Source: Alphaproteobacteria bacterium
GTDB lineage: Bacteria; Pseudomonadota; Alphaproteobacteria; TMED109
Assembly (NCBI GenBank): GCA_022825705.1
Contig: JAJDWH010000036.1
Span: forward strand, 124,001 to 188,000
Direction: 5' to 3'
DNA length: 64,000 nucleotides
Below the pieces are notes generated by a model. That model saw only the letters and a program-made list of their open reading frames with translations. It searched no databases and had not been told where the DNA came from. Below are positions 5,852 through 20,386 of the stretch, one piece after another. The translations under genes were made by a program, and so were the position numbers. Positions within the stretch are counted from its first letter, which is position 1. Each line of letters begins with the position of its first letter.

Positions 5852-8002
<2,151 letters not shown>

Positions 8003-8080
8003 GGCAGAATTCGCAGTGCCTGTGGATCAGAAGCCGAACTGCAGCGGGGCTCGGTACCGCGCACGAGCCCGGCGCGAAGG

Positions 8081-8497
8081 TTAGTGATCAGCCCGGTCGA
8101 TCCACGGAAGCGGGCAGACCGGCACGCCTTCTTCACGCAACTCCCGGGCTTCCTCGCAGGTGGCCTCGCCGTAAATGCTCTTCTCTTCGCATTCCCCCGC
8201 GTACATGGCCCGGGCCTCGGCCGGAAAGCGATCACCCACGTACGTGCTGTTCTTTTCGACCGTCCGGCGGAGCTTGCGCAGGGCCTGCAGCATCGCAGCC
8301 TGCGCCTGCTTGCGCTCCGGTTCCCGGTCCTGGCCGCGGGCAGGCCGCTGCGCCATCGGCGCCTTCTTCACCTTCACCGTATCGCATACAGGACAGCGAA
8401 TCTGGCCCTTGGCGGCCTGCTGGTCATAGTCAGCCCCGCTCGGAAACCAGCCTTCGAAAACGTGGCCGCTGTCGCATTCGAGGTCGAATAGGATCAC
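8081..8497 (-). CDS. DUF1178 family protein
   Basis: A 138-residue protein of the alphaproteobacterial DUF1178 family. It begins MILFDLECDSGHVFEGWFP, where the family's conserved first strand and GHxFEGWF motif are visible, and a zinc-ribbon-like CPVC is present near residue 35. The C-terminal half has the family pattern YVGDRFPAEARAMYAGE. No activity is established; the Cys pairs suggest metal binding. The GTG at 8497 was chosen because it places Met directly before the family's ILFDLxC start; no good ribosome site is visible. A divergent methyltransferase gene begins 70 bases away. It is the neighbour of the nitrilase/glutaredoxin pair, as in many relatives. Confidence 0.85.
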   Translation of the reverse strand: MILFDLECDSGHVFEGWFPSGADYDQQAAKGQIRCPVCDTVKVKKAPMAQRPARGQDREPERKQAQAAMLQALRKLRRTVEKNSTYVGDRFPAEARAMYAGECEEKSIYGEATCEEARELREEGVPVCPLPWIDRADH

Positions 8498-8567
8498 TGG
8501 ACGCGTTCGCCCCGTTGCCAGACTGTTGCATTCTAGACCAATTGGCAGGAACGAGGCCATTCGGGAG

Positions 8568-9137
8568 ATGAACTCTGAGGACGGTGCGCGGGCCATGCAC
8601 CCTGGGACCGCACCTTCGCCGTGGATCGTGCGATACGGGCGCGCCTTTGGCCGGGGGCACACCGCGCTCGACATTGCCTGCGGGAGCGGGCGCCATGTGC
8701 GGCATTTCCTGGCTCAAGGTTGTCACGTTACCGGCGTTGACAGGGGTCCGGATGCCGCGGCCGGTATCCGCTGCGGCCGTTTCGAACGCATGGTGCAGGA
8801 TCTCGAAGACGGTAGTCCCTGGCCGTTCCCGAAGCGCACCTTCGATGCGGTCATCGTGACCAACTACCTGCATCGGCCGCTCTTCCCCCACATCGTGGCC
8901 GCCGTCGCCGTCGGGGGTAGGCTGCTGTACGAGACGTTCGCCGTGGGGAACGAGCGGTTCGGCCGGCCCAGCGACCCCAGGTTTCTCCTGCGGCGCGGCG
9001 AATTGCTGGCCGCCGTCGGCGATTCCCTGCGCGTGCTCGCATACGAAGATGTCGTGACGCCGCGGCCCGCCCGCGTCCAGCGAATCGCGGCCGTCCGCGA
9101 CACTGCCGGTTCGGCTGGACGCGCCGCGGCGCCGTGA
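8568..9137 (+). CDS. SAM-dependent class I methyltransferase, substrate unknown
   Basis: A 189-residue protein with the SAM-binding glycine motif LDIACGSGRHVRHF (about 33-46), the acidic residue at the end of strand 2 (VTGVDRG) and a motif IV region FDAVIVTNYLHRPLFPHI. This pattern resembles small TehB-like or UbiE-like methyltransferases. Start codons at 8526, 8568 and 8595 are all possible; 8568 gives a compact N-terminus. It overlaps no neighbour and is divergent from DUF1178. No residue pattern identifies the acceptor substrate, so the function is left open. Confidence 0.75.
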   Translation: MNSEDGARAMHPGTAPSPWIVRYGRAFGRGHTALDIACGSGRHVRHFLAQGCHVTGVDRGPDAAAGIRCGRFERMVQDLEDGSPWPFPKRTFDAVIVTNYLHRPLFPHIVAAVAVGGRLLYETFAVGNERFGRPSDPRFLLRRGELLAAVGDSLRVLAYEDVVTPRPARVQRIAAVRDTAGSAGRAAAP

Positions 9138-9187
9138 CCGCTAGCCGGCGCCAGCTGCCGGCCGCTGTCTCGCGTGGCCGATCGCTG

Positions 9188-10036
9188 TCAGCCGGTCGGC
9201 GGCGGCTCTGACCAGCGTCGCTGCACCGCCAGGCTCGGAATCATGTCTCTGGCCTCCGTGACGGCAGCCGGGTCCAGGTCCGCCACGACCAGATCCGGCT
9301 CGTCTCCGGCCGCGGCGACCACCTGACCCCACGGGTCCACCACCATCGTGTGTCCCCACGTCCGGCGCCGCCCGTAATGAACGCCGCACTGCGCCGGCGC
9401 GAAGACCCAGCTTCCCGTCTCGATCGCCCGGGCGCGGAGGAGCGTTTCCCAGTGAGCGCGCCCCGTGGGGCGCGTGAATGCCGAGGGGATGGAGAGAAAC
9501 CAGGCGCCCGCCTTGGCAAGTGACTGATAGAGCTCAGGAAACCGGAGGTCGTAGCAAATGGTCATGCCCAGCAGCCCCCAAGGCGTCATGGCCGTGACGG
9601 CGCGTGTGCCGGACCGATAGCGTTCGGATTCCCGGTAGCTTTCGCCTGACCCGGGATTGGCGTCGAACATGTGAATCTTGTCGTACCGCCGCACCACCGT
9701 TCCGTCAGCGTCGATCAGCAGCGACCGATTGGCCAATCTGCCGTCCGAATCGTCCGGCTCGGCCGCGAGCGAGCCCAGCAGCACCCAGATCCCGGCTTCA
9801 CGTGCCGCCGTGCACACGGCGCGGGTGGCGGGATGAGATTCTTCAGGAGCGGCCGCCGCCTGCATGGCGCTGGCTGGGGCAAGCAACGGCGCGTTCTCCG
9901 GGAATGCCACCAGGTCCGCCCCGGCAGCCCGAGCGGCATGCACCTGTTGCTCGATGATGCCCAGGTTCTCGGGGAGATCTGGCGTGCTGGTGAGCTGCGC
10001 GCAGGCCAGGCGGAAAGGTCTGGAAAGCTCAGACAT
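9188..10036 (-). CDS. Carbon-nitrogen hydrolase (Nit2/omega-amidase-like)
   Basis: Nitrilase-superfamily amidase of 282 residues. The Glu-Lys-Cys triad is visible: Glu in FPENAPLL, Lys in YDKIHMFD, and Cys in TICYDLRFPEL. The pattern is closest to the Nit1/Nit2 branch, which hydrolyses alpha-ketoglutaramate or damaged (deaminated) glutathione. The association with glutaredoxin directly upstream (overlapping by 8 bases) and with a gamma-glutamyltransferase-like gene fits a glutathione-linked role, but that is inference. The ATG at 10036 was chosen since MSELSRPFRLACAQ is the family's usual start. Confidence 0.88.
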   Translation of the reverse strand: MSELSRPFRLACAQLTSTPDLPENLGIIEQQVHAARAAGADLVAFPENAPLLAPASAMQAAAAPEESHPATRAVCTAAREAGIWVLLGSLAAEPDDSDGRLANRSLLIDADGTVVRRYDKIHMFDANPGSGESYRESERYRSGTRAVTAMTPWGLLGMTICYDLRFPELYQSLAKAGAWFLSIPSAFTRPTGRAHWETLLRARAIETGSWVFAPAQCGVHYGRRRTWGHTMVVDPWGQVVAAAGDEPDLVVADLDPAAVTEARDMIPSLAVQRRWSEPPPTG

Positions 10037-10298
10037 CCCCGAGCAACCGGTCGAGTTCGCCCGATGCCGCGGCGGCGGCGAGCTCGTCGGAACCGCCGAC
10101 ATGGAAGCCGTTGATGAATATCTGGGGAGCCGTTCGCGCGCCGCCGGCCGCCGCCGTCATCTCCGCCCGAAGCTCCGGGTTGCCGGTCACGTCGATCTCC
10201 CGGAAGGCGATCCCGCGGTCGCCGAGCAGGCGTTTCGCCCGATAGCAGAACCCGCAGAGCATCTGCGTGTAGACAACGACGTCGGGAGCCGTGCCCAT
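10029..10298 (-). CDS. grxC: Glutaredoxin 3 (GrxC)
   Basis: Dithiol glutaredoxin of 89 residues with CGFC at 15-18, the cis-proline TAPQIFIN segment and the glutathione-contact GGSDELAA motif. It reduces protein and glutathione mixed disulfides in the cytoplasm. The stop codon lies inside the start of the nitrilase gene (8-base overlap), so the two are translated as a pair. This grx-nit arrangement recurs in alphaproteobacteria, where the order often includes a double zinc-ribbon/ComF gene that is not seen here. Confidence 0.93.
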   Translation of the reverse strand: MGTAPDVVVYTQMLCGFCYRAKRLLGDRGIAFREIDVTGNPELRAEMTAAAGGARTAPQIFINGFHVGGSDELAAAAASGELDRLLGDV

Positions 10299-10306
10299 GT
10301 TGCCTC

Positions 10307-11896
10307 CTATGTGCCGATGGCCGCGCCGTCCTTGCGAGGGTCAGAGCCCGCCGAGAGGACCCCGTTGTCGGGATCGATCGAAATGGCTTGGCCGCCGCCG
10401 AACGGCAGGTCAGGGACGTCTACCGCGTGTCCGAGGCGCTCCAGCGCGTCTCGCGTCGAGCGGGGCACCCCCCGCTCACAACTCAGCACACCGTCGAAAT
10501 GGAATGCCCGCGGGCAATCCAGCGCCTCCTGCACATCCATGCCAAAGTCCAGGACATTGGTCAAAAAGTGCGCCTGGCCGACCGGCTGGAAGTGCCCGCC
10601 CATCACGCCGAAGGCCATCCAGGCGCGATCGCCCCGCACCGCCATCGCGGGGATGATCGTATGCATGGGGCGCTTGCCCGGCATGAGTTCGTTCGGATGG
10701 CCGGGTCCGAGTGAAAAGCCCGCTCCTCGGTTGTGCAGCATCACGCCGGATCCGGGTGCAAGGATCCCGCTTCCGAACGAATGGAACAGCGAATTGATGA
10801 ACGATACCGCGTTGCGGTCGGCATCCACCACGGTGAGGTAGACCGTATCCCGGTGTTCGGGCAATTCCGGCGGCGTGAGGCCCGGCGTCATCCGCTGCAC
10901 GTCGATCCGCGCGCGGAGCGCCTCGGCGTGTGCGTCGCTGAGCAGGGCCTCCACGGGCACCTCGGCGTGCTCCGGATCCGCCAGTCGCGCCGCGCGTTCG
11001 CAGTAGGCCAGGCGCGTCGCTTCGGCCTCAAGGTGAAAGCGCTCCGGGCCCAGGGGGTCCAGCCTCGCCAGATCGAACCCGCTCAGCACGTTCAGCATCA
11101 GGAGCGCGATGATGCCTTGCCCGCTGGGCGGGCACTCGTACACATCCACTCCGCGATACCGTGTACGTATCGGCGTCACGTAGTTGACGGTTGCCGCCGC
11201 AAAGTCGTCCTCCGTGTGCACGCCGCCTGCTGTCCGCAACTTGCCGACGATGTCCTGCGCCACCGGCCCCTCGTAGAAAGCCCTTGCCCCGTGACTGGCG
11301 ATGGCCTGCATGGTCTCGCCAAGACGCGGCTGACGATGCACCTCTCCCGCGCGGGGCGGAAGTCCCTGCGGGAGAAACACGGCCGCGGCATCCGGGTCCG
11401 CCTGCAGCTTGTCGCGTTCGCGGCTCCAGGCGTCCGCAATCACGTCGCCGACCGGGTAGCCCTCGATCGCATAGGCGATGGCCGGCGCGAGCACGCGGTC
11501 GAGGTCCAGACGGCCGTGGTCCGTCAGCAGGCGTTCCCAGGCGCGCACGGCACCGGGGACGGTCACCGCGTGCGGGCTGGTAAACGGGATCGCCCCGAGC
11601 CCGGCGTCCCGGAGTGCGCCGGCCGACGCCGCCGCGGGCGCCCGCCCTGAACCGTTCAGGGCGATGACTTCACTGCCGCCGGCCGGTGCGTACAAGCAGA
11701 AGACGTCACCCCCGATGCCGGTTGAATGGGGCTCCACCACCGCCAGGACGGCCGCCGCGGTTACCGCCGCGTCGATCGCATTGCCGCCCTCGCGCAGCAC
11801 GTCGACGGCAGCCAGGGTGGCCAATGGATGGGACGTCGCGGCAGCGGCGTTGGTTCCGCGCACCGGGGAGCGGCCAGGCTGGTGAAGGTCACGCAT
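10307..11896 (-). CDS. Gamma-glutamyltransferase-family protein, no signal peptide
   Basis: Ntn-hydrolase of about 529 residues related to gamma-glutamyltranspeptidase. Conserved elements are TSHPLATLAAVDVLREGGNAIDAAVTA-type N-terminal sequence (about residues 20-45), STGIGGDVFCLY, and the autoprocessing region HRDTVYLTVVDADRNAVS, where the Thr of DTVYL is the probable nucleophile and processing site. Unlike secreted Ggt no signal peptide is visible, so it is probably cytoplasmic; members of this branch include cephalosporin acylase-like and oxamate amidohydrolase-like enzymes. ATG 11896 is used; a TTG five codons upstream is the alternative. The gene stops 8 bases before grxC starts, consistent with a ggt-grx-nit unit. 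Confidence 0.88.
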   Translation of the reverse strand: MRDLHQPGRSPVRGTNAAAATSHPLATLAAVDVLREGGNAIDAAVTAAAVLAVVEPHSTGIGGDVFCLYAPAGGSEVIALNGSGRAPAAASAGALRDAGLGAIPFTSPHAVTVPGAVRAWERLLTDHGRLDLDRVLAPAIAYAIEGYPVGDVIADAWSRERDKLQADPDAAAVFLPQGLPPRAGEVHRQPRLGETMQAIASHGARAFYEGPVAQDIVGKLRTAGGVHTEDDFAAATVNYVTPIRTRYRGVDVYECPPSGQGIIALLMLNVLSGFDLARLDPLGPERFHLEAEATRLAYCERAARLADPEHAEVPVEALLSDAHAEALRARIDVQRMTPGLTPPELPEHRDTVYLTVVDADRNAVSFINSLFHSFGSGILAPGSGVMLHNRGAGFSLGPGHPNELMPGKRPMHTIIPAMAVRGDRAWMAFGVMGGHFQPVGQAHFLTNVLDFGMDVQEALDCPRAFHFDGVLSCERGVPRSTRDALERLGHAVDVPDLPFGGGQAISIDPDNGVLSAGSDPRKDGAAIGT

Positions 11897-12206
11897 GGGA
11901 TCTGGGTCCAAGTGAAATCGACGGACACGTCAAGCACGAATGCCCTGGCACGCCCCGGGGCATTCTATTGGCAAGAAGCGGGAGCGGTTTTGTAGCCGGT
12001 CGGGAGCCGAGCGGTGATCCTCGCGGGGCTCGCTGGCGCCCCCGGGTCCGTCTCGTTCAGAGCACCGGACGGGGCCGCGGGCGGTCTCGATTCGGGGGAT
12101 CGGGCGCCTCGCGCGGGCGTTCCTGCGGTCCCGGCAAGTCGCAAAACTGGTGTCATACGATGGCCGTCCGGCCGCCCGCGACGGCCGCATTCAGGCGTTG
12201 CGTATC
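11897..12206. other. Gene-free stretch upstream of ggt-like gene and metF promoter
   Basis: About 310 bases with no convincing coding frame on either strand. It contains a perfect 7-bp stem (GGCCGTC at 12162-12168 with GACGGCC at 12180-12186) just ahead of the metF promoter. The rest is GC-rich sequence with no feature that I recognise; it must hold the promoter of the ggt-like gene reading left. Confidence 0.5.
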
Positions 12207-12235
12207 TTGACCCGTTGATATCCCGTCTCTACAGT
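12207..12235 (+). promoter_or_regulatory. Probable sigma-70 promoter of metF-metH
   Basis: TTGACC (12207-12212), a 17-base spacer and TACAGT (12230-12235). A start 6-8 bases downstream would fall at about 12241-12243, exactly at the 5' end of the predicted SAM aptamer, which strengthens both calls. Confidence 0.6.
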
Positions 12236-12240
12236 CGTCA

Positions 12241-12364
12241 ATGCATCCTGAGGGGTTGACGCACCCCACCAACCTGCAGCCCGTGCAAGGTGGTTTCCCG
12301 CTGGGGAGATGCGGCCGGACGGCAATCACGGGCGTCAGCCTCCTCAGCGCCGCGCCGAAGGAGG
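12241..12364 (+). promoter_or_regulatory. Candidate SAM riboswitch (SAM-I/SAM-IV-like) with SD-sequestering platform
   Basis: Leader RNA for metF-metH. The aptamer (12241-12313) closes with P1 GCATC/GATGC (12243-12247 with 12308-12312). Inside are a P2 hairpin GGGG-loop-CCCC (12252-12267) whose loop reads TTGACG, a P3 made by CCAACC ... GTGCAAGGTGG (12269-12293), and a small P4 (TCCC/GGGA, 12296-12307). The order of conserved blocks, nGAG, GTTGACG, CAACC, GGTG, TCC, GATG, is that of S-box aptamers, although P2 lacks the kink-turn extension. Downstream, CCTCCT (12339-12344) is fully complementary to the SD AGGAGG (12359-12364), and the 5' aptamer strand 12248-12261 can pair with 12333-12347, giving an exclusive ON fold. 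Inferred: SAM turns translation off. Confidence 0.62.
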
Positions 12365-12369
12365 TTCTC

Positions 12370-12549
12370 ATGTCGCATGGCTCCGGGCCCGCTTCTCCAG
12401 GCAGGAGCACGGTCTCGCCGTGCAGGCGCGGCTTGCCCGCCACATCGCCATCAGCACCTGACCATTGCGCCGGCCTTCGACAGCCGCGATCCATGCGCGG
12501 CACCCCGACGGGTTCCACCGCATCGGAACCACTGTCCGGCACGCGATGA
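12370..12549 (+). CDS. 59-codon leader ORF overlapping metF, function unknown
   Basis: An ATG at 12370 lies five bases after a perfect AAGGAGG ribosome site, the strongest in the area and the one that the riboswitch can sequester. The frame runs 59 codons and its TGA overlaps the metF ATG as ATGA, while metF has no ribosome site of its own. This argues that ribosomes enter here and reach metF by coupling. The encoded sequence is rich in Ser, Pro, Gly and Arg and resembles no family I know. The metF frame, rather than this one, has G or C at most third positions across 12372-12545, apart from a TGA at 12459, so a frameshifted older N-terminus is an alternative explanation. Confidence 0.4.
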   Translation: MSHGSGPASPGRSTVSPCRRGLPATSPSAPDHCAGLRQPRSMRGTPTGSTASEPLSGTR

Positions 12550-13433
12550 CACGACCCTCCATCAGCTTTGAGTTCTTCCCGCCCGCGGATGCGGGCGCCG
12601 TGCAACGCCTGCAGCGGGTCATGAATCTGCTGGTTCAGCTCGGACCCGACTTCTTTTCGGTCACCTATGGTGCCGACGGCTCCACCCGCTCGCGCACCGA
12701 AGGGCTCGTGTGCTGGATCCGCCAGGAGCTTCCCGTGCCCCCGGCCGCTCACCTGACCTGTGTCGGGTCAACCCGGTCTCAGACGAACACCTTGGCCCGG
12801 CGCTGGTGGTCGCTGGGAATCCGGCACATCGTGGCACTTCGCGGTGACCCGCCGAAAGGCGCCGATCGATATCGCCCGGAACCGGACGGCTACCGGCATG
12901 CGGCCGATCTCGTGCGCGGCATCCGAACTGCCGCCGATTTCGAGATTTCGGTGGCAGGCTACCCGGAGCCGCACCCCGAATCTCCGTCACCGGCAGCGGA
13001 TATCGAGAACCTGAAGGCCAAGGTGGATGCCGGTGCCGATCGGGTGCTCACGCAGTACTTTTTTGACAACGCGTGTTTCCTGCGCTTCCGGGACCGATGC
13101 CGCGCCGCCGGCATTACGGCGCCGATCGTGCCCGGGATCCTTCCGGTCACCGATTTCGCGCGGGTCGCGGCATTCAGCCGCCGCTGCGGCGTGACGATCC
13201 CGTCGCACATGGCCGCGACCTTCGAGCCCCTGGACACCGACGCCCGTACCCGCGACATGATCGCCGCGGGCGCTGCGGTGTCGCAATGCGAAGATCTCCG
13301 GCGCGAGGGGGTGAACGCGTTTCACTTCTACACGCTGAACCGCGCTCGGCTCAGTTACGCGATCTGCTGGTGGCTGGGCCTGCGGGGACGCATCGAGGCA
13401 CCGTCGGACGAGGCGGCGGACTCGGACGCATGA
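12546..13433 (+). CDS. metF: 5,10-methylenetetrahydrofolate reductase
   Basis: FAD enzyme of 295 residues that makes 5-methyl-THF for MetH. The catalytic Glu lies in SFEFFPP at the N-terminus, followed by [13 protein letters not shown] and the folate/FAD-site pattern HLTCVG, with ALRGDPPKG near residue 98. The C-terminal segment [13 protein letters not shown] is characteristic. It is translated directly from an ATGA overlap with the leader ORF and its own stop overlaps the metH start (ATGA), so leader-metF-metH form one translationally coupled operon under the candidate SAM switch. Confidence 0.95.
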
Positions 13434-16400
13434 GCGGACCGGCCGCCGATACCGCAGTCCGGCGGCGAGAGCTGGAGCGCCGTCTCCGCGAACGGATTCT
13501 GCTGCTCGACGGCGCGTTCGGCACCATGTTGCAGGGGCGAGGTCTCGAGGAACGTGATTACCGAGGGGATCGCTTCCGGGAGCATCCGCACGACCTCGCG
13601 GGCAACTTCGACATCCTCTGCCTGACTCGCCCGGACGTGGTGGCGGATGTTCACGACGCCTATCTTGGCGTAGGCGCCGACATCATCGAGACCTGCACCT
13701 TCAGCGCGACGTCCATCGCCCAGGCGGATTACGGAACCGGGGATCTGGCCCGAGAGATCAACTGCGCTGCGGCCCGCATCGCCCGGGAGGTCGCCGCCCG
13801 CCACGAAGCCGATGGCCTGCCACGCTTTGTGGCCGGAGCCCTGGGCCCGACCAATCGGACAGCGTCAGTTTCACCGGTGGTCGAAGACCCGGCCGCGCGC
13901 AACGTCACCTACGACGAGCTTCGCCAAGCGTATCGGACGGCCGCACTCGGCTTGATCGAGGGCGGCGCGGACATGCTGCTGGTCGAGACCGTGTTTGACA
14001 CCCTGAACGGCAAGGCCGCGCTGCACGCCATCGACGAGGTGTTCGATCGCGCCGGGGTCCGACTGCCGGTCATGATCTCCGGCACGATTACGGACGCGTC
14101 GGGGCGGACGCTGACCGGCCAGACACCGGCCGCCTTCTGGGCGTCCGTGCGCCATGCCCGGCCGTTTTCGATCGGGTTCAACTGCGCCCTGGGGGCGCGG
14201 GAGCTTCGCCCGCATCTCCAGGAGATCGCCCATCTCGCTGACCGGCCGGTATGTCTCTATCCGAATGCGGGGCTCCCGAACGCCTTCGGCGGCTACGACG
14301 AAACGCCGACGAGCATGGCCGCCGACCTCGGTGAGTTCGCCGAGAACGGGTGGTTGAACATCGCGGGCGGTTGCTGCGGGACCACGCCCGAGCACATCGC
14401 CGCCATCCGGGAAGCCGTCATCGACAAGGCTCCGCGATCGGCCGCGCCATCGATGTCGTACTGCTTCCTGTCCGGACTCGAGCCGCTCGCCATCAACCAG
14501 GACACCGGCTTCGTCAATGTGGGCGAGCGCACCAACGTCACGGGTTCGGCCCGGTTTCGGCGGCTCGTGCTGGACGGGGATTTCGACGCGGCGCTGGAGG
14601 TGGCCCGCGACCAGGTCCGGAACGGTGCCCAGATCATCGACATCAATCTCGACGAGGCGATGCTCGATGTGGAAGCGGCGATGACGCGGTTCCTCCGCCT
14701 GATTGCCGCGGAGCCGGAAATCAGCCGGGTGCCCCTGATGCTGGATTCCTCGAGCTGGTCCGTGCTGGAGGCGGGCCTCAGGAACGTCCAGGGCAAGCCC
14801 ATCGTGAACTCGATCAGCCTCAAGGAAGGTGAGGCGGCGTTCCGCCAGCAGGCAGAAGTGGTCCTGCGACACGGCGCTGCCGTCGTGGTGATGGCCTTCG
14901 ACGAACAGGGACAGGCGGAGACGGCCGCACGAAAGGTCGAGATCTGCGGACGCGCGTACCGGATTCTGGTGGAGGAGGTCGGCTTCCCCCCTGAGGACAT
15001 CATCTTCGATCCCAACATCTTTGCCGTGGCCACCGGCATCGAGGAGCACGACGACTACGCAGTCGCGTTTCTCGAGGCCTGCCGTCAGATCAAGGCAACG
15101 TTGCCCGGAAGTCTCGTGTCCGGGGGTCTCTCCAACCTCTCCTTTTCGTTCCGCGGCAACGACGGCGTCCGCAAGGCCATGCACTCGGTGTTCCTCTACC
15201 ACGCCATCGCGGCCGGCCTCGACATGGCGATCGTCAACGCGGGGCAACTCGCCGTCTACGCGGACCTTCCCGCGACCCTCCGGGAAACGGTGGAGGACGT
15301 CGTCCTCAACCGACAGCCGGACGCCGCGCAGCGTCTGCTGGAGATGGCCGCCGGACCAGCCCGTGCCCTCGAGACCGAAGACGAAGCGGACCCCGAATGG
15401 CGTCGCAAGCCCGTCAGTGAGCGGCTGATGCATTCCCTGGTTGAGGGAATCACCGAATTCATCGTCGAGGACGTCGAGATTGCCCGCCAGCAAGTGGAGG
15501 ACCCGCTCGACGTCATCGAGGGCCCGTTGATGGACGGCATGAGCCGGGTGGGCGACCTGTTCGGTTCGGGGCAGATGTTCCTGCCCCAGGTCGTCAAGAG
15601 CGCCCGGGTCATGAAACAGGCAGTGAACCACCTGGAGCCGTTTATCGAAGCGCGCAAGCAGGGGCGGGCCCGCGCCCGGGGGCGCATCGTGCTTGCCACC
15701 GTGAAAGGTGACGTGCACGACATCGGCAAGAACATCGTCGGCGTCGTGCTCGGGTGCAACCACTTCGAGGTCATTGACCTTGGCGTGATGGTTCCATCCG
15801 CGGCAATCCTGGAGGCCGCCCGTGATCACGACGCCGACATGGTGGGCCTGTCAGGGCTGATCACGCCGTCGCTTCGTGAAATGACCCTGGTCGCCGGCGA
15901 GATGGAGCGCGAAGCGCTCCGGGTCCCGCTCCTGATCGGCGGTGCGACCACCTCCAAGGCCCATACCGCGGTGAAGATCGCGCCGGAGTACTCCGGCCCG
16001 GTCGTGCATGTGGCCGACGCGTCGCGCGCCGTAACCGTCGCCTCCAGCCTCGCCAGCAGCACGCGCGCCTCGGCGCTGATTGCTGAAGTGCAGGAGGAAT
16101 ACGGAAGGATCCGCGAGCAGCACGGGGATCGACGCGAACGTTCCAACCGCTTGCCGCTCGAGGAGGCGCGGAGGCGACGAATCCGCATTGACTGGAGCAA
16201 CGGAATCCCGCCTCCTCCCCGCGACACCGATCTGCTCCACTTCGCGGCCTACGACCTCGATGAACTTGCGGAGCGAATCGACTGGACACCGTTCTTCCAC
16301 ACTTGGGAACTCGCGGGCAGGTGGCCCCAGATTCTCGATGACCCGGTGGTCGGCGAGGCCGCCCGGGGCCTCTTCCGGGACGCCCAGGCCATGTTGCGGC

Positions 16401-17125
16401 GGATCGTGGACGAGCGGTTGCTGGAAGCTCGGGGGGTCACCCGGATGTTTCCGGCCAACGCCGTCGATGACGACGTCGAGGTGTACGCGGACTCCACGCG
16501 CTCGGACGTGCGGGCACGGTTCGTCTTCCTTCGCCAGCAGATGGACAAGTCCGCCGGCCGTCCCAACCTCTGTCTGGCCGACTTCGTTGCCCCCAAGACA
16601 ACGGGGCTTGCCGACCACATCGGTGCGTTCGCCGTCACGGCCGGTATCGGTCTGGACGCCGCGCGGGAAGGCCAGGATGCGTACGCCGAGATCCTTCTCC
16701 AGTCGCTCGCCGACCGCCTCGCCGAAGCCTTCGCGGAACGCATGCACGAAAGGGTGCGGAAGGAGTTCTGGGGTTACGCGCCGGAGGAGCACCTGGACAA
16801 CGAGGCCTTGATCGACGAGGCGTATCAGGGCATCCGTCCGGCTCCGGGATATCCGGCCTGTCCCGATCACAGCGAGAAGCGCACGCTGTTTCAGCTGTTA
16901 GAGGCCGACACCCGCGCGGGCATTACCCTCACCAACAGTTTCGCGATGATGCCGGCCGCGTCGGTCTCCGGTCTCTACTTCGCCCATCCGGAGACGAGAT
17001 ACTTCGGCGTCGGCCGGATCGGCCGAGACCAGGTGGAGGACTACGCCCGGCGAAAGGGATTCGCCGTGGCGGAAGCAGAGGAAACGCTTGCCGCCAATCT
17101 CGGGTACGCCCCGGAGGACCGCTAG
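13430..17125 (+). CDS. metH: Cobalamin-dependent methionine synthase
   Basis: Full-length four-module MetH of 1231 residues. The homocysteine domain (about 1-330) ends with the zinc ligands GGCCGTT (Cys315-316). The folate domain begins near [11 protein letters not shown]. The cobalamin module follows, with the axial ligand motif DVHDIGKN (His763). The C-terminal activation domain has the SAM-binding signature around [14 protein letters not shown]. All modules are intact, so it needs B12 and reductive reactivation with SAM and flavodoxin or ferredoxin partners encoded elsewhere. The ATG at 13430 overlaps the metF stop. An in-frame upstream extension of the reading frame is covered by metF and was ignored. 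Confidence 0.97.
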
Positions 17126-17634: not shown

Positions 17635-18408
17635 ATGGCAACCGACAGCAGCGCGAGTGGTGACGCGGCCCACGGGCCGCTCGAGCAGTTCGAGATCGTC
17701 GCCCTCGAACCCATTCAGATCGGGGGGCTCGACCTCTCGTTTACCAATTCAGCTCTCTGGATGCTGATTGCAGTCGCCACCATTGCCATGGTGTTCGCCG
17801 GCGGCATGCGGCGGCGCGCGATTATTCCCGGGCGATGGCAAGCGGCGGTGGAACTGACCTACCGGTTCGTGGCCAACATGCTGCAGGACAACGTCGGTCC
17901 GCAGGGGGCCCGCTACTTCCCCTTTATTTTCAGCCTGTTCCTGTTCATCCTCTTCGGAAATCTCCTGGGGATGGTGCCCTACAGCTTCACGTACACCAGC
18001 CACATCGCCGTGACGTTCGCCATGGCGGCCGTGGTATTCGTCGGCGTGACCGTCATCGGGCTGGCGCGACACGGAGTCCGGTTCCTCTCGCTCTTCGTCC
18101 CGTCCGGTGTCCCGATGGCGCTCATCCCGTTGATGGTCCCGATCGAGATCATCAGCTATTTCGTCCGACCGGTCAGCCTTTCTCTGCGCCTGTTCGCCAA
18201 CATGATGGCCGGGCATACGATGCTCAAGGTCTTTGGGGGCTTTGTCGGCCTCCTGCTGTCCGCCGGCCTCGGGTTCCTGGCGCCGGTGTCCATCATCCTG
18301 ATCGTGATCCTGACCGGCTTTGAACTGCTGGTAGCGGCCATTCAGGCCTATGTCTTCGCGGTCCTGAGCTGCCTGTACCTGAGTGACGCGCTGGACCTTC
18401 ACCACTAA
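17635..18408 (+). CDS. atpB: F0F1 ATP synthase subunit a
   Basis: Integral membrane subunit of 257 residues forming the proton half-channels. Five to six hydrophobic helices are visible. The essential arginine lies in [14 protein letters not shown], next to the c-ring interface, and the C-terminal helix has the [15 protein letters not shown] pattern. The N-terminus is polar and short, as in relatives. It is followed by atpE 49 bases downstream. Confidence 0.97.
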
Positions 18409-18457: not shown

Positions 18458-18685
18458 GTGGAAACAGAAGCTGCCAGGCTGATCGGCGCCGGTCTCGCCA
18501 CCATCGCGCTCGCTGGAGCCGGTATCGGCATCGGCAACATCTTCGGAAACTACGTTTCTGCCGCCATTCGCAATCCGTCAGCCGCGCCGAAGGTCTTCGG
18601 CAACGTACTGTTGGGATTCGCGTTGACGGAGGCGATCGCGCTGTTCGCATTGCTGATCGCGTTCCTGATTCTCTTCGCCGTCTAG
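18458..18685 (+). CDS. atpE: F0F1 ATP synthase subunit c
   Basis: A 75-residue two-helix proteolipid. Helix 1 includes the glycine-rich [12 protein letters not shown]; the polar loop RNPSAAPKV follows, and helix 2 carries the proton-binding Glu in ALTEAIALF. The GTG start at 18458 has a ribosome site AAAGGA seven bases upstream and is preferred over an in-frame ATG at 18383 that lies inside atpB. Glycine repeats without a Na+ ligand set suggest a proton-driven ring. Confidence 0.97.
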
Positions 18686-18700
18686 CCTGAATTGCCGCCG

Positions 18701-19273
18701 ATGGCTCGCCGCTTCCCCGTTGTTTGCTCCATTGCGTCCGCCGCGTTGCTTCCAGCCGTGGCGTCCGCGGAGAGCAACATGCCGCAGCTTCGCGTGGAAA
18801 CGTTCGCGTCCCAGATTTTCTGGTTGGTGGTTACGTTCTCGCTGCTCTACGTCGTGATCAGCCGGATCGTGCTGCCGCAGGTGCGAACCACGCTGCGGGC
18901 CCGTGAAACGCGGATTGGCGTTGACAGGGAACAGGCAGACGAGCTCCGCAAGGAAGCCGAGGCCGCGCACCACCGCGGGAGTGACGCGCTTGCGGCCGCC
19001 CGTGCCGACAGTGAACGGCAGCTCCGGGAAGCGCACGACAAGGCGGCCGTGGCCTTCCGGACGGAAACCCAGCGCCTGCAGGAGGCCCTTGAAAACGAGA
19101 GAGTCGAGGCGGAGGCCCGCATCGAAGCGAGTCGCGCGGTGGCGCTGCGGGACGCCGAGGCCGCGGCCGTGGAGCTCGTGCGATCGCTCACCGGCAGCCT
19201 GACGTCCGTCAAGATCGAGGACGCGGCATTGTCCCGCGTCGTCGCACAGGCCGCGCGGGAAAAGACGCCATGA
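18701..19273 (+). CDS. atpF': F0F1 ATP synthase subunit b'
   Basis: The second b-type stator subunit, 190 residues, as found in alphaproteobacteria and phototrophs. After a signal-like N-terminus (about 1-25), the membrane helix FWLVVTFSLLYVVISRIVLP is followed by a long charged coiled coil to the C-terminus, rich in Ala, Glu and Arg. ATG 18701 was chosen over a TTG at 18692. The stop overlaps the atpF start (ATGA). It pairs with atpF to form the b/b' peripheral stalk. Confidence 0.92.
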   Translation: MARRFPVVCSIASAALLPAVASAESNMPQLRVETFASQIFWLVVTFSLLYVVISRIVLPQVRTTLRARETRIGVDREQADELRKEAEAAHHRGSDALAAARADSERQLREAHDKAAVAFRTETQRLQEALENERVEAEARIEASRAVALRDAEAAAVELVRSLTGSLTSVKIEDAALSRVVAQAAREKTP

Positions 19274-19779
19274 CGTGGTCGGTGCTGGCCCAGGATCCGT
19301 CCTTCTGGGTCGCGATATCGTTCGTCCTGTTTGTGGGTGCCTTCGGGCGCCTGTTGTTCCGGAAACTTGCAGCTGTTCTGGATGCACACCGGAACGCGGT
19401 ACGCGATGAACTGGACAGCGCGGCAGCTCTCCATGCCGAGGCGCAGTCCCTCCGTGACCGCTACACCGACGAGGCCGCGGAGGCCGAGAAAACGGCCGGG
19501 GAGATTCGTGCCCGGGCGCAAGAGACCGCCGGCCAAATTGCCGCAGATGCCGATCGGCGGCTGCAGGCACACCTCTCCCGGATGCGCGCGCGCGCCACGG
19601 AAGAGATTGCCCGCACCGAGGAGGCCGCGCGGCAGATGTACCGGGAGCGGGTGGCCGACCTGGTGCTGGAAGCCTCGACTCGCCTGCTGCGCGAACGGAT
19701 CGATGCCGAGACACAGCTTTCCCTCGTTCAGCAGACAGTTGACAGCCTTGGACAGTCACTGAAGCAGCGGCAAGCGTGA
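19270..19779 (+). CDS. atpF: F0F1 ATP synthase subunit b
   Basis: Stator subunit of 169 residues. One membrane helix ([20 protein letters not shown], residues 9-28) leads into a long Ala/Glu/Arg-rich coiled coil and a delta-contact C-terminus. It overlaps atpF' by 4 bases. The F1 genes are not here; separate F0 and F1 operons are normal in this class. A 37-base gap leads to hslV. Confidence 0.94.
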
Positions 19780-19816
19780 GACCTGCTGCGGTGAACTTGC
19801 CTCCTGCCTGCCCCAA

Positions 19817-20386
19817 ATGATGTCCATGTCCGAGCCCCCGAAGGTCAAAACGCCCTGGCATGGCACCACGGTGCTGTCCGTTCGGCGGGCTGGAGCGGTG
19901 GTCATTGCCGGAGACGGCCAGGTAACCCAGGGCGACACCGTCATCAAGGCCAACGCCCGCAAAGTGCGCCGCTTGGCCGGCGGCGCCGTGCTGGCGGGAT
20001 TTGCGGGCGCGACCGCCGACGCCTTCACCCTCTTCGATCGGCTGGACGCCAAGCTCGAGCGGCATCCGGGCCAGTTGATGCGGGCATGTGTTGAATTGGC
20101 GCGCGACTGGCGAACCGACCGGTACCTTCGCCGCCTGGAGGCGGTCATGGCAGTTGCGGATCGCGAAGTGTCACTGCTGGTATCCGGTGTCGGGGACGTG
20201 GTGGAACCGGCGGACGGCCTCATCGGCATCGGCTCTGGAGGCGGTTTCGCCCTGGCTGCGGCCCGCGCCCTGAGCGAAGTCGAGGGGCTGGATGCCGAGG
20301 AAATCGCCCGGCGGTCGCTGGCCGTCGCCGCGGAACTTTGCATCTACACGAACCACCAGATTTCCGTCGAAGTTATCCGCCAATGA
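19817..20386 (+). CDS. hslV: ATP-dependent protease HslV peptidase subunit (ClpQ)
   Basis: Threonine peptidase of 189 residues. The N-terminus is processed to expose the catalytic Thr in [10 protein letters not shown] (Thr17 of the ORF). Other conserved elements are [13 protein letters not shown] and [16 protein letters not shown], and the terminal ISVEVI. It forms dodecamers with HslU. ATG 19817 is the first of three clustered Met codons (19817, 19820, 19826). Its stop overlaps the hslU start as ATGA. Confidence 0.96.

Follow-up and report, generated by a model that had tools for sequence, protein, structure and literature searches.

The closest described precedent for the arrangement reported here is the B12 riboswitch of ppe2 in M. 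tuberculosis. Experimental work on that locus (PMC11260477) describes a gene that lacks a Shine-Dalgarno (SD) sequence of its own and is preceded by an out-of-frame upstream ORF (uORF); the two overlap at an AUGA, and expression of the gene needs translation of the uORF. A further precedent is the SAM-II riboswitch of Sinorhizobium meliloti metA, for which translation was proposed to begin at AUG2, 74 nt downstream of the riboswitch SD (PMC9373788). The aptamer of the present locus belongs with a third body of work. SAM-I (S-box) and SAM-IV share with it their clan and the ligand-binding core, and SAM-I/IV, as compared with SAM-IV, is described as having a P2 that is not split, no PK-1, and a P4 (PMC6890682). 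The discoverers of the SAM-I/IV group state that its P2 has no internal loop (Weinberg et al. 2010, PMC2864571). Methionine regulation has been surveyed across about 200 proteobacterial genomes, with treatment of the SAM_alpha (SAM-II), SAH, and SAM-SAH riboswitches; in the part of that survey covered here, SAM-I/IV is not mentioned (PMC4239095).

We analysed a stretch of alphaproteobacterial DNA of 64,000 nucleotides (the window), in which a SAM-I/IV aptamer lies upstream of a leader ORF, metF, and metH (Table 1). The locus resembles ppe2, as described in the cited account, in its translational OFF state, in the SD-less downstream gene, and in an out-of-frame uORF that ends in an AUGA overlap. 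It differs in ligand, aptamer class, phylum, and gene, and the relay that was tested there is one that we infer here (PMC11260477). The layout itself, with a gated SD before a uORF and a stop-start overlap with an SD-less gene, is present in all seven genomes of the window's genus. S. meliloti metA is likewise controlled by an alphaproteobacterial SAM switch whose SD is required by a start codon lying farther downstream; it is unlike the window in its SAM-II aptamer, in a second AUG that is in frame and 74 nt away, in the terminator between, and, in the portion of the report cited, in an unused first AUG and the lack of a stop-start overlap (PMC9373788). The combination of SAM-I/IV aptamer, expression platform, and leader-ORF relay is a new variant made from known parts.

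Table 1. Coordinates of the features at the locus, numbered from the first letter of the window.
Feature	Position	Strand	Basis or remark
Sigma-70-like promoter, TTGACC-17-TACAGT	12207-12235	+	9 of 12 consensus matches
SAM-I/IV aptamer (RF01725)	12238-12339	+	Rfam match; helix positions from sequence and model alignment
P1	GCATC 12243-12247 with GATGC 12308-12312	+	Sequence and family-model alignment
P2	12252-12256 with 12263-12267	+	Uninterrupted hairpin, no internal loop
P3	from 12269-12274 with 12289-12293	+	Sequence and family-model alignment
Loop-3 pseudoknot	GCCCG 12279-12283 with CGGGC 12329-12333	+	Can reach 7 pairs, at the expense of inner P3
Alternative (ON) helix	12248-12261 with 12333-12347	+	Incompatible with P2 and with the anti-SD pairing
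OFF hairpin	12337-12344 with 12359-12366	+	Closes the SD; from sequence and forced OFF fold
Shine-Dalgarno AGGAGG	12359-12364	+	5 nt before ATG 12370; present in 7 of 7 congeners
Leader ORF, 59 codons and TGA	12370-12549	+	SD, layout, and conservation; TGA at 12547-12549
metF, 295 aa	12546-13433	+	PF02219, E 2.9e-89; no SD of its own
metH, B12-dependent methionine synthase	13430-17125	+	Five domains; predicted start codon

The aptamer and its family

A search of the 64-kb window against 4227 Rfam families returned a single family above its own gathering score. This family, RF01725 (SAM-I/IV, SAM-I-IV-variant), scored 57.1 bits (gathering score 41.1; E 9.3e-07 over the whole window), and the match covers the full length of the model (positions 1-99 of 99). 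The genome of the window contains one RF01725 copy. A permissive scan of 12200-12420 (E of at most 10) gave, besides RF01725, only an unrelated family at 12.3 bits (E 1.6). No SAM-I match is listed for the window or for the 12200-12420 scan, in which the best family of the clan is kept and RF01725 wins.

The preliminary description, made from the sequence before any search, had proposed a covariance search with the SAM clan models and had read the element as a SAM-clan aptamer without a kink-turn, possibly a variant of the clan. The search gave the significant match reported above, and the first part of the reading stands; the variant does not, as the family is the described SAM-I/IV. P2 is uninterrupted in the window, and the marks of SAM-I (S-box), a kink-turn or internal loop in P2 and the loop-2 pseudoknot PK-1, were not found in the aptamer. 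Because a P2 without an internal loop is a published mark of SAM-I/IV, it is not the sign of something new for which it had been taken. The window resembles the published family in sequence and structure over the whole model, in this P2, and in the loop-3 pseudoknot (PMC2864571). Judged by its match, the aptamer is an ordinary member of the described family and no new clan variant, with SAM as its presumed ligand.

RF01725 searches found 46 places in total, all of which were examined. Six of these are further members of the window's genus; the other 40 serve as representatives, several of which share a genus (L013, L119, and L122; L002 and L027; L036 and L037; L021, L029, L030, and L121), so that they do not amount to 40 independent cases. 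Among genomes drawn evenly from the class, 35 of 385 contained RF01725 under strict filters. Start codons at the other loci were chosen by a crude SD rule that is wrong for some metA loci; no count depends on them.

To assess covariation we aligned 28 of the 46 loci, which were chosen before folding; 18 were omitted, and three of the 28 come from the window's genus (the window, L004, and L010). The preliminary description had named covarying pairs in relatives as a check on the structure, and 7 of the 17 pairs in the predicted consensus are indeed changed on both sides across the 28 loci. P2 is absent from this predicted consensus. The proposed P1, GCATC with GATGC, was found and is placed as in the RF01725 model; its first pair is A-U in 14 rows, G-C in 11, and G-U in three. 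The claim that the outer G-C pair of P3 is replaced by C-G failed: five P3 pairs are invariant in all 28 rows, and the outermost pair (columns 34-63) is A-U, G-U, or G-C in 27 of 28 rows and A-U in the window. In our reading of the alignment, the window has a change in inner P3, where it carries A-U and most of the 28 rows carry C-G.

A pseudoknot between loop 3 and the 3' tail had been missed in the preliminary description. In the window it comprises seven Watson-Crick pairs, and none of 39 foreign loops did as well. At least four Watson-Crick pairs are possible in 34 of the 40 representatives; about one-third of the foreign loops equal this on average, so single cases are weak. The crystal-structure paper on SAM-I/IV reportedly names the pseudoknot between loop 3 and the 3' tail PK-2 and includes it in the switch. 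The fold energy of the whole leader showed no extra stability compared with shuffled sequences (z -0.64, with 51 of 200 shuffles as good), and the evidence for the structure is thus comparative. A loop-3 to 3'-tail pseudoknot PK-2 has also been described for SAM-IV (PMC6890682).

The preliminary description had also placed a promoter ahead of the aptamer. The promoter scan found one (shuffle mean 0.0), which ends just 5' of the aptamer; in all seven congeneric genomes both boxes are identical and the 17-nt spacing is kept. With the promoter ending at 12235, transcription is predicted to start at about 12241-12243, where P1 has its 5' edge.

Predicted pairing between P2 and the expression platform

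The RF01725 model ends at the aptamer, and the platform with its P2/L2 displacement and leader-ORF relay falls outside it; the comparisons below lend comparative support to an expression platform in this family. The 5' strand of the alternative helix runs from J1/2 through the 5' strand of P2 into loop L2. Its 3' strand contains the sequence CCTCCT (12339-12344), which sits 14 nt ahead of the AGGAGG of the SD. The alternative helix and the pairing that closes the SD are mutually exclusive. Both pairings, and their exclusiveness, had been predicted from the sequence, and both are present. AGGAGG is not rare in the window (36 occurrences against 30 expected); among the listed AGGAGG sites, this is the sole place where a minus-strand copy is followed by a plus-strand copy within 30 nt.

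The duplex of the alternative helix has an energy of -28.1 kcal/mol, compared with -16.5 (sd 2.4) when the downstream sequence is shuffled (z -4.77, with none of 300 shuffles as good), and p is at most 0.003 in all seven congeners. The unforced minimum free energy fold of the window is the ON form and contains this helix. Relative to the forced ON fold, forcing the OFF form costs 3.0 kcal/mol in the window and 1.8-7.9 kcal/mol across the seven congeners. Once OFF is forced, the last five of the six SD bases have an unpaired probability of at most 0.04 in all seven genomes. The predicted ON form leaves at least two of the six SD bases largely paired in each of the seven, which counts against the model. 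The best unforced fold of L009 and of L010 is neither the ON nor the OFF form.

The alternative helix is nearly constant across the window's genus (L010 breaks one pair); covariation evidence for it therefore comes from the class. The helix reached p <0.05 in 20 of the 40 representatives (14 of 30 other loci, five of nine further loci, and the genus counted once), these p-values being based on 300 shuffles per locus and uncorrected for the number of loci. It was without significance in the other 20, which include the metF locus of a sister genus, L003. No significant alternative helix was found at L007, L008, L011, or L014, from other genera of the family. At several loci the platform follows a changed L2: in L028, GGGCCGACGC pairs with GCGTCGGCCC, and in L023, AGGACTGACG pairs with CGTCTGTCCT.

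We also offered each platform the P2/L2 segments of other loci (40 representatives). The locus's own P2/L2 fell into the best tenth in 14 of 40 cases (KS p 9e-06), compared with two of 40 for a control segment from upstream of the aptamer and seven of 40 for the P3/L3 segment, itself provided with a pairing partner in the tail. The pairing is thus specific for its partner across the class. We met no description of a pairing between P2/L2 and the platform in the parts of the open-licence literature covered, a scope that leaves aside the crystal-structure work on SAM-I/IV, and we do not claim that it is unpublished.

The leader ORF and its probable coupling to metF

According to the preliminary description, the switch acts on an SD in front of metF-metH. 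The translational platform, the exclusive pairings on the SD, and the metF-metH operon all hold; the SD and ATG at 12359-12372 open the 59-codon leader ORF instead, and the metF ATG lies at 12546. On this layout, metF would be reached only indirectly by the gated SD. The stop codon of the leader ORF overlaps the metF ATG as ATGA. The anti-SD duplex at the start of the leader ORF amounts to -12.4 kcal/mol in the window (-12.4 to -13.0 over the seven genomes), and that at the metF start to -1.7 kcal/mol (-1.7 to -4.5). Many metF-like genes begin without an SD, so its lack alone does not prove coupling. metF overlaps the next start by 4 nt in all seven congeners, as ATGA in four, including the window, and as GTGA in three. 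An upstream start for metF at TTG 12465 was rejected: between 12370 and 12546 the metF frame contains stops in five of the seven genomes, and its pN/pS of 1.12-1.49 gives no hint of selection on a protein.

In all seven congeners the SD, the 5-nt spacing, the ATG, and the ATGA overlap are kept. Between the two clades of the genus, identity is 56-60% in the leader ORF and 83-86% in metF. The leader ORF has 59 codons in five genomes, 58 in L012, and 49 in L005; the indels inside it (3 and 30 nt) are multiples of three, and a difference of 1 nt is seen in the sequestering loop next to it. Its pN/pS is 0.61 and 0.63 within clades and 0.76 between clades, compared with 0.10-0.14 for metF; the +1 frame gives 0.84 in the between-clade comparison. 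By these values the peptide is only weakly constrained; it is the frame and the ends that are kept. A search for the leader ORF in 41 genomes found it at the locus in all seven members of the genus, plus three weak matches elsewhere, and no Pfam family matched its peptide. Given the pN/pS of 0.61-0.76, the lack of a Pfam family, and the occurrence at this locus in the genus with three weak matches elsewhere, a conserved functional micropeptide is unlikely.

Frame 0 is open in all seven genomes, for which a neutral simulation on the fitted tree, given an open ancestor, yields 0.046. Frame +1 is also open in six of the seven, and a random 58-codon frame of equal composition is open with a probability of 0.46; at this G+C, an open frame is weak evidence. 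The last two numbers fit a reading in which only the aptamer matters, metF starts independently without an SD, and the leader ORF has arisen by chance in G+C-rich DNA. We regard this as very unlikely: the SD, ATG, spacing, and ATGA overlap are kept in all seven genomes while the remainder falls to the low identity given above, the indels respect the frame inside the ORF and a 1-nt difference occurs just outside it, and the conserved SD with its hairpin would lack a target if there were no leader ORF.

By analogy with S. meliloti metA, 30S subunits loaded at the SD might initiate directly at the metF ATG, leaving the leader ORF untranslated, and the tested alphaproteobacterial SAM riboswitch is reported to behave in this way (PMC9373788). 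Such loading would have no need of a stop-start overlap that joins both frames, nor does it fit well with the ATG conserved next to the SD at a 5-nt spacing in all seven genomes or with the gap of 176 nt to metF (146 nt in L005). We consider it decidedly unlikely.

A scan of 12000-12700 found no intrinsic terminator between the aptamer and metF; the single terminator-like site, at 12632, lies inside metF, and intrinsic termination in this interval was rejected. Rho could act there instead. With SAM bound, the untranslated, C-rich stretch 12370-12546 would recruit Rho, and transcription would end before metF; translating ribosomes would shield the RNA, and reinitiation may add to the effect. 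The C/G ratio of the leader ORF in the window is 1.38, a value that 4.1% of 177-nt stretches on the two strands of the window attain; for its best 78-nt C excess the figure is 3.0%. L005 has a ratio of only 1.09 and the remaining five congeners have 1.20-1.31, near that of metF (1.13-1.21), and Rho alone would leave the exact ATGA overlap in all seven genomes unexplained. This makes a Rho gate unlikely.

A short ORF ahead of a methionine operon also brings to mind a peptide attenuator that senses methionine by stalling. The seven leader peptides contain at most one internal Met (solely L001 has one), on which ground such an attenuator was rejected; the constraint on the peptide is weak, and the scan above gave no terminator-like site from the aptamer to metF. 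The probability of this reading is close to nil.

Computation shows the match to the family, which pairings can form, and a conserved arrangement of the genes; from this we infer which way the switch works, that the leader ORF is translated, and that ribosomes reinitiate on metF. The locus probably functions as a SAM-repressed translational switch that is relayed to metF-metH by translational coupling through the leader ORF. Bound SAM would hold P1, P2, and the loop-3 pseudoknot in place, leaving 12337-12344 free to pair with the SD region at 12359-12366. The closed SD would keep the leader ORF untranslated, and with it metF and metH, which are chained to it by overlaps. Without SAM, the strand 12333-12347 would land on L2 and displace P2 through pairing with 12248-12261; this would remove the anti-SD strand and free the SD. 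Ribosomes would then read the 59 codons of the leader ORF, stop at the TGA within ATGA, and reinitiate on the SD-less metF, and the 4-nt overlap of metF and metH would pass them on to metH. If this is correct, it would be a second, unrelated riboswitch that reaches an SD-less gene through a coupled leader ORF; the M. tuberculosis arrangement may recur, and genes thought to be directly controlled by riboswitches may be reached via an unannotated short ORF.

SAM-I/IV at other loci and the neighbouring genes

We give about even chances to a broader proposal in two parts. In the first, SAM-I/IV riboswitches of Alphaproteobacteria would share a general way of switching, displacement of P2/L2 by a strand of the platform, which acts on SD hairpins at some loci and on terminators at others. 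In the second, SAM-I/IV in the window would directly target solely a coupling ORF that is kept for its frame and its ATGA end and not for its peptide, so that one gated ribosome binding site drives three chained cistrons (leader ORF, metF, and metH). At L003, from a different genus of the same family, the riboswitch lies directly ahead of an apparent metF and metH without a leader ORF (genes named by eye). An Rfam scan of 13 of 79 related metF loci returned no match over threshold.

In the window, the divergent neighbours on the minus strand (5852-11911) encode a gamma-glutamyltranspeptidase, a carbon-nitrogen hydrolase, a DUF1178 protein, and a B12-binding methylmalonyl-CoA mutase. Behind metH lie an ATP synthase A chain gene (17635-18408, plus strand) and a 495-codon ORF with no Pfam match (18578-20065, minus strand).

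At five loci (L015, L017, L018, L019, and L024), SAM-I/IV lies ahead of genes without an evident link to methionine. Six proteins encoded behind these loci were compared with Pfam and PHROGs; one is an SNF2-type helicase like phage helicases (L015), and five had no match over the cut-off. The longest loop-3 pseudoknot among the 40 representatives, with nine Watson-Crick pairs, belongs to the aptamer of L121.

In three loci from sister genera (L007, L008, and L014), the stretch 30-220 nt behind the aptamer holds a terminator-like hairpin with a U-run and then a small ORF, about 50 codons long, whose end in L007 and L008 overlaps the next ATG by 8 nt. Within the first 60 nt behind the aptamer in L016, L023, and L033, the SD lies in a hairpin that passes straight into a U-run immediately ahead of an ATG, and this single hairpin could serve as both terminator and SD lock. 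In L023, at +38, the SD hairpin is followed by a 9-codon ORF, possibly a riboswitch-gated short ORF, with an unrelated 113-codon ORF 85 nt further on.
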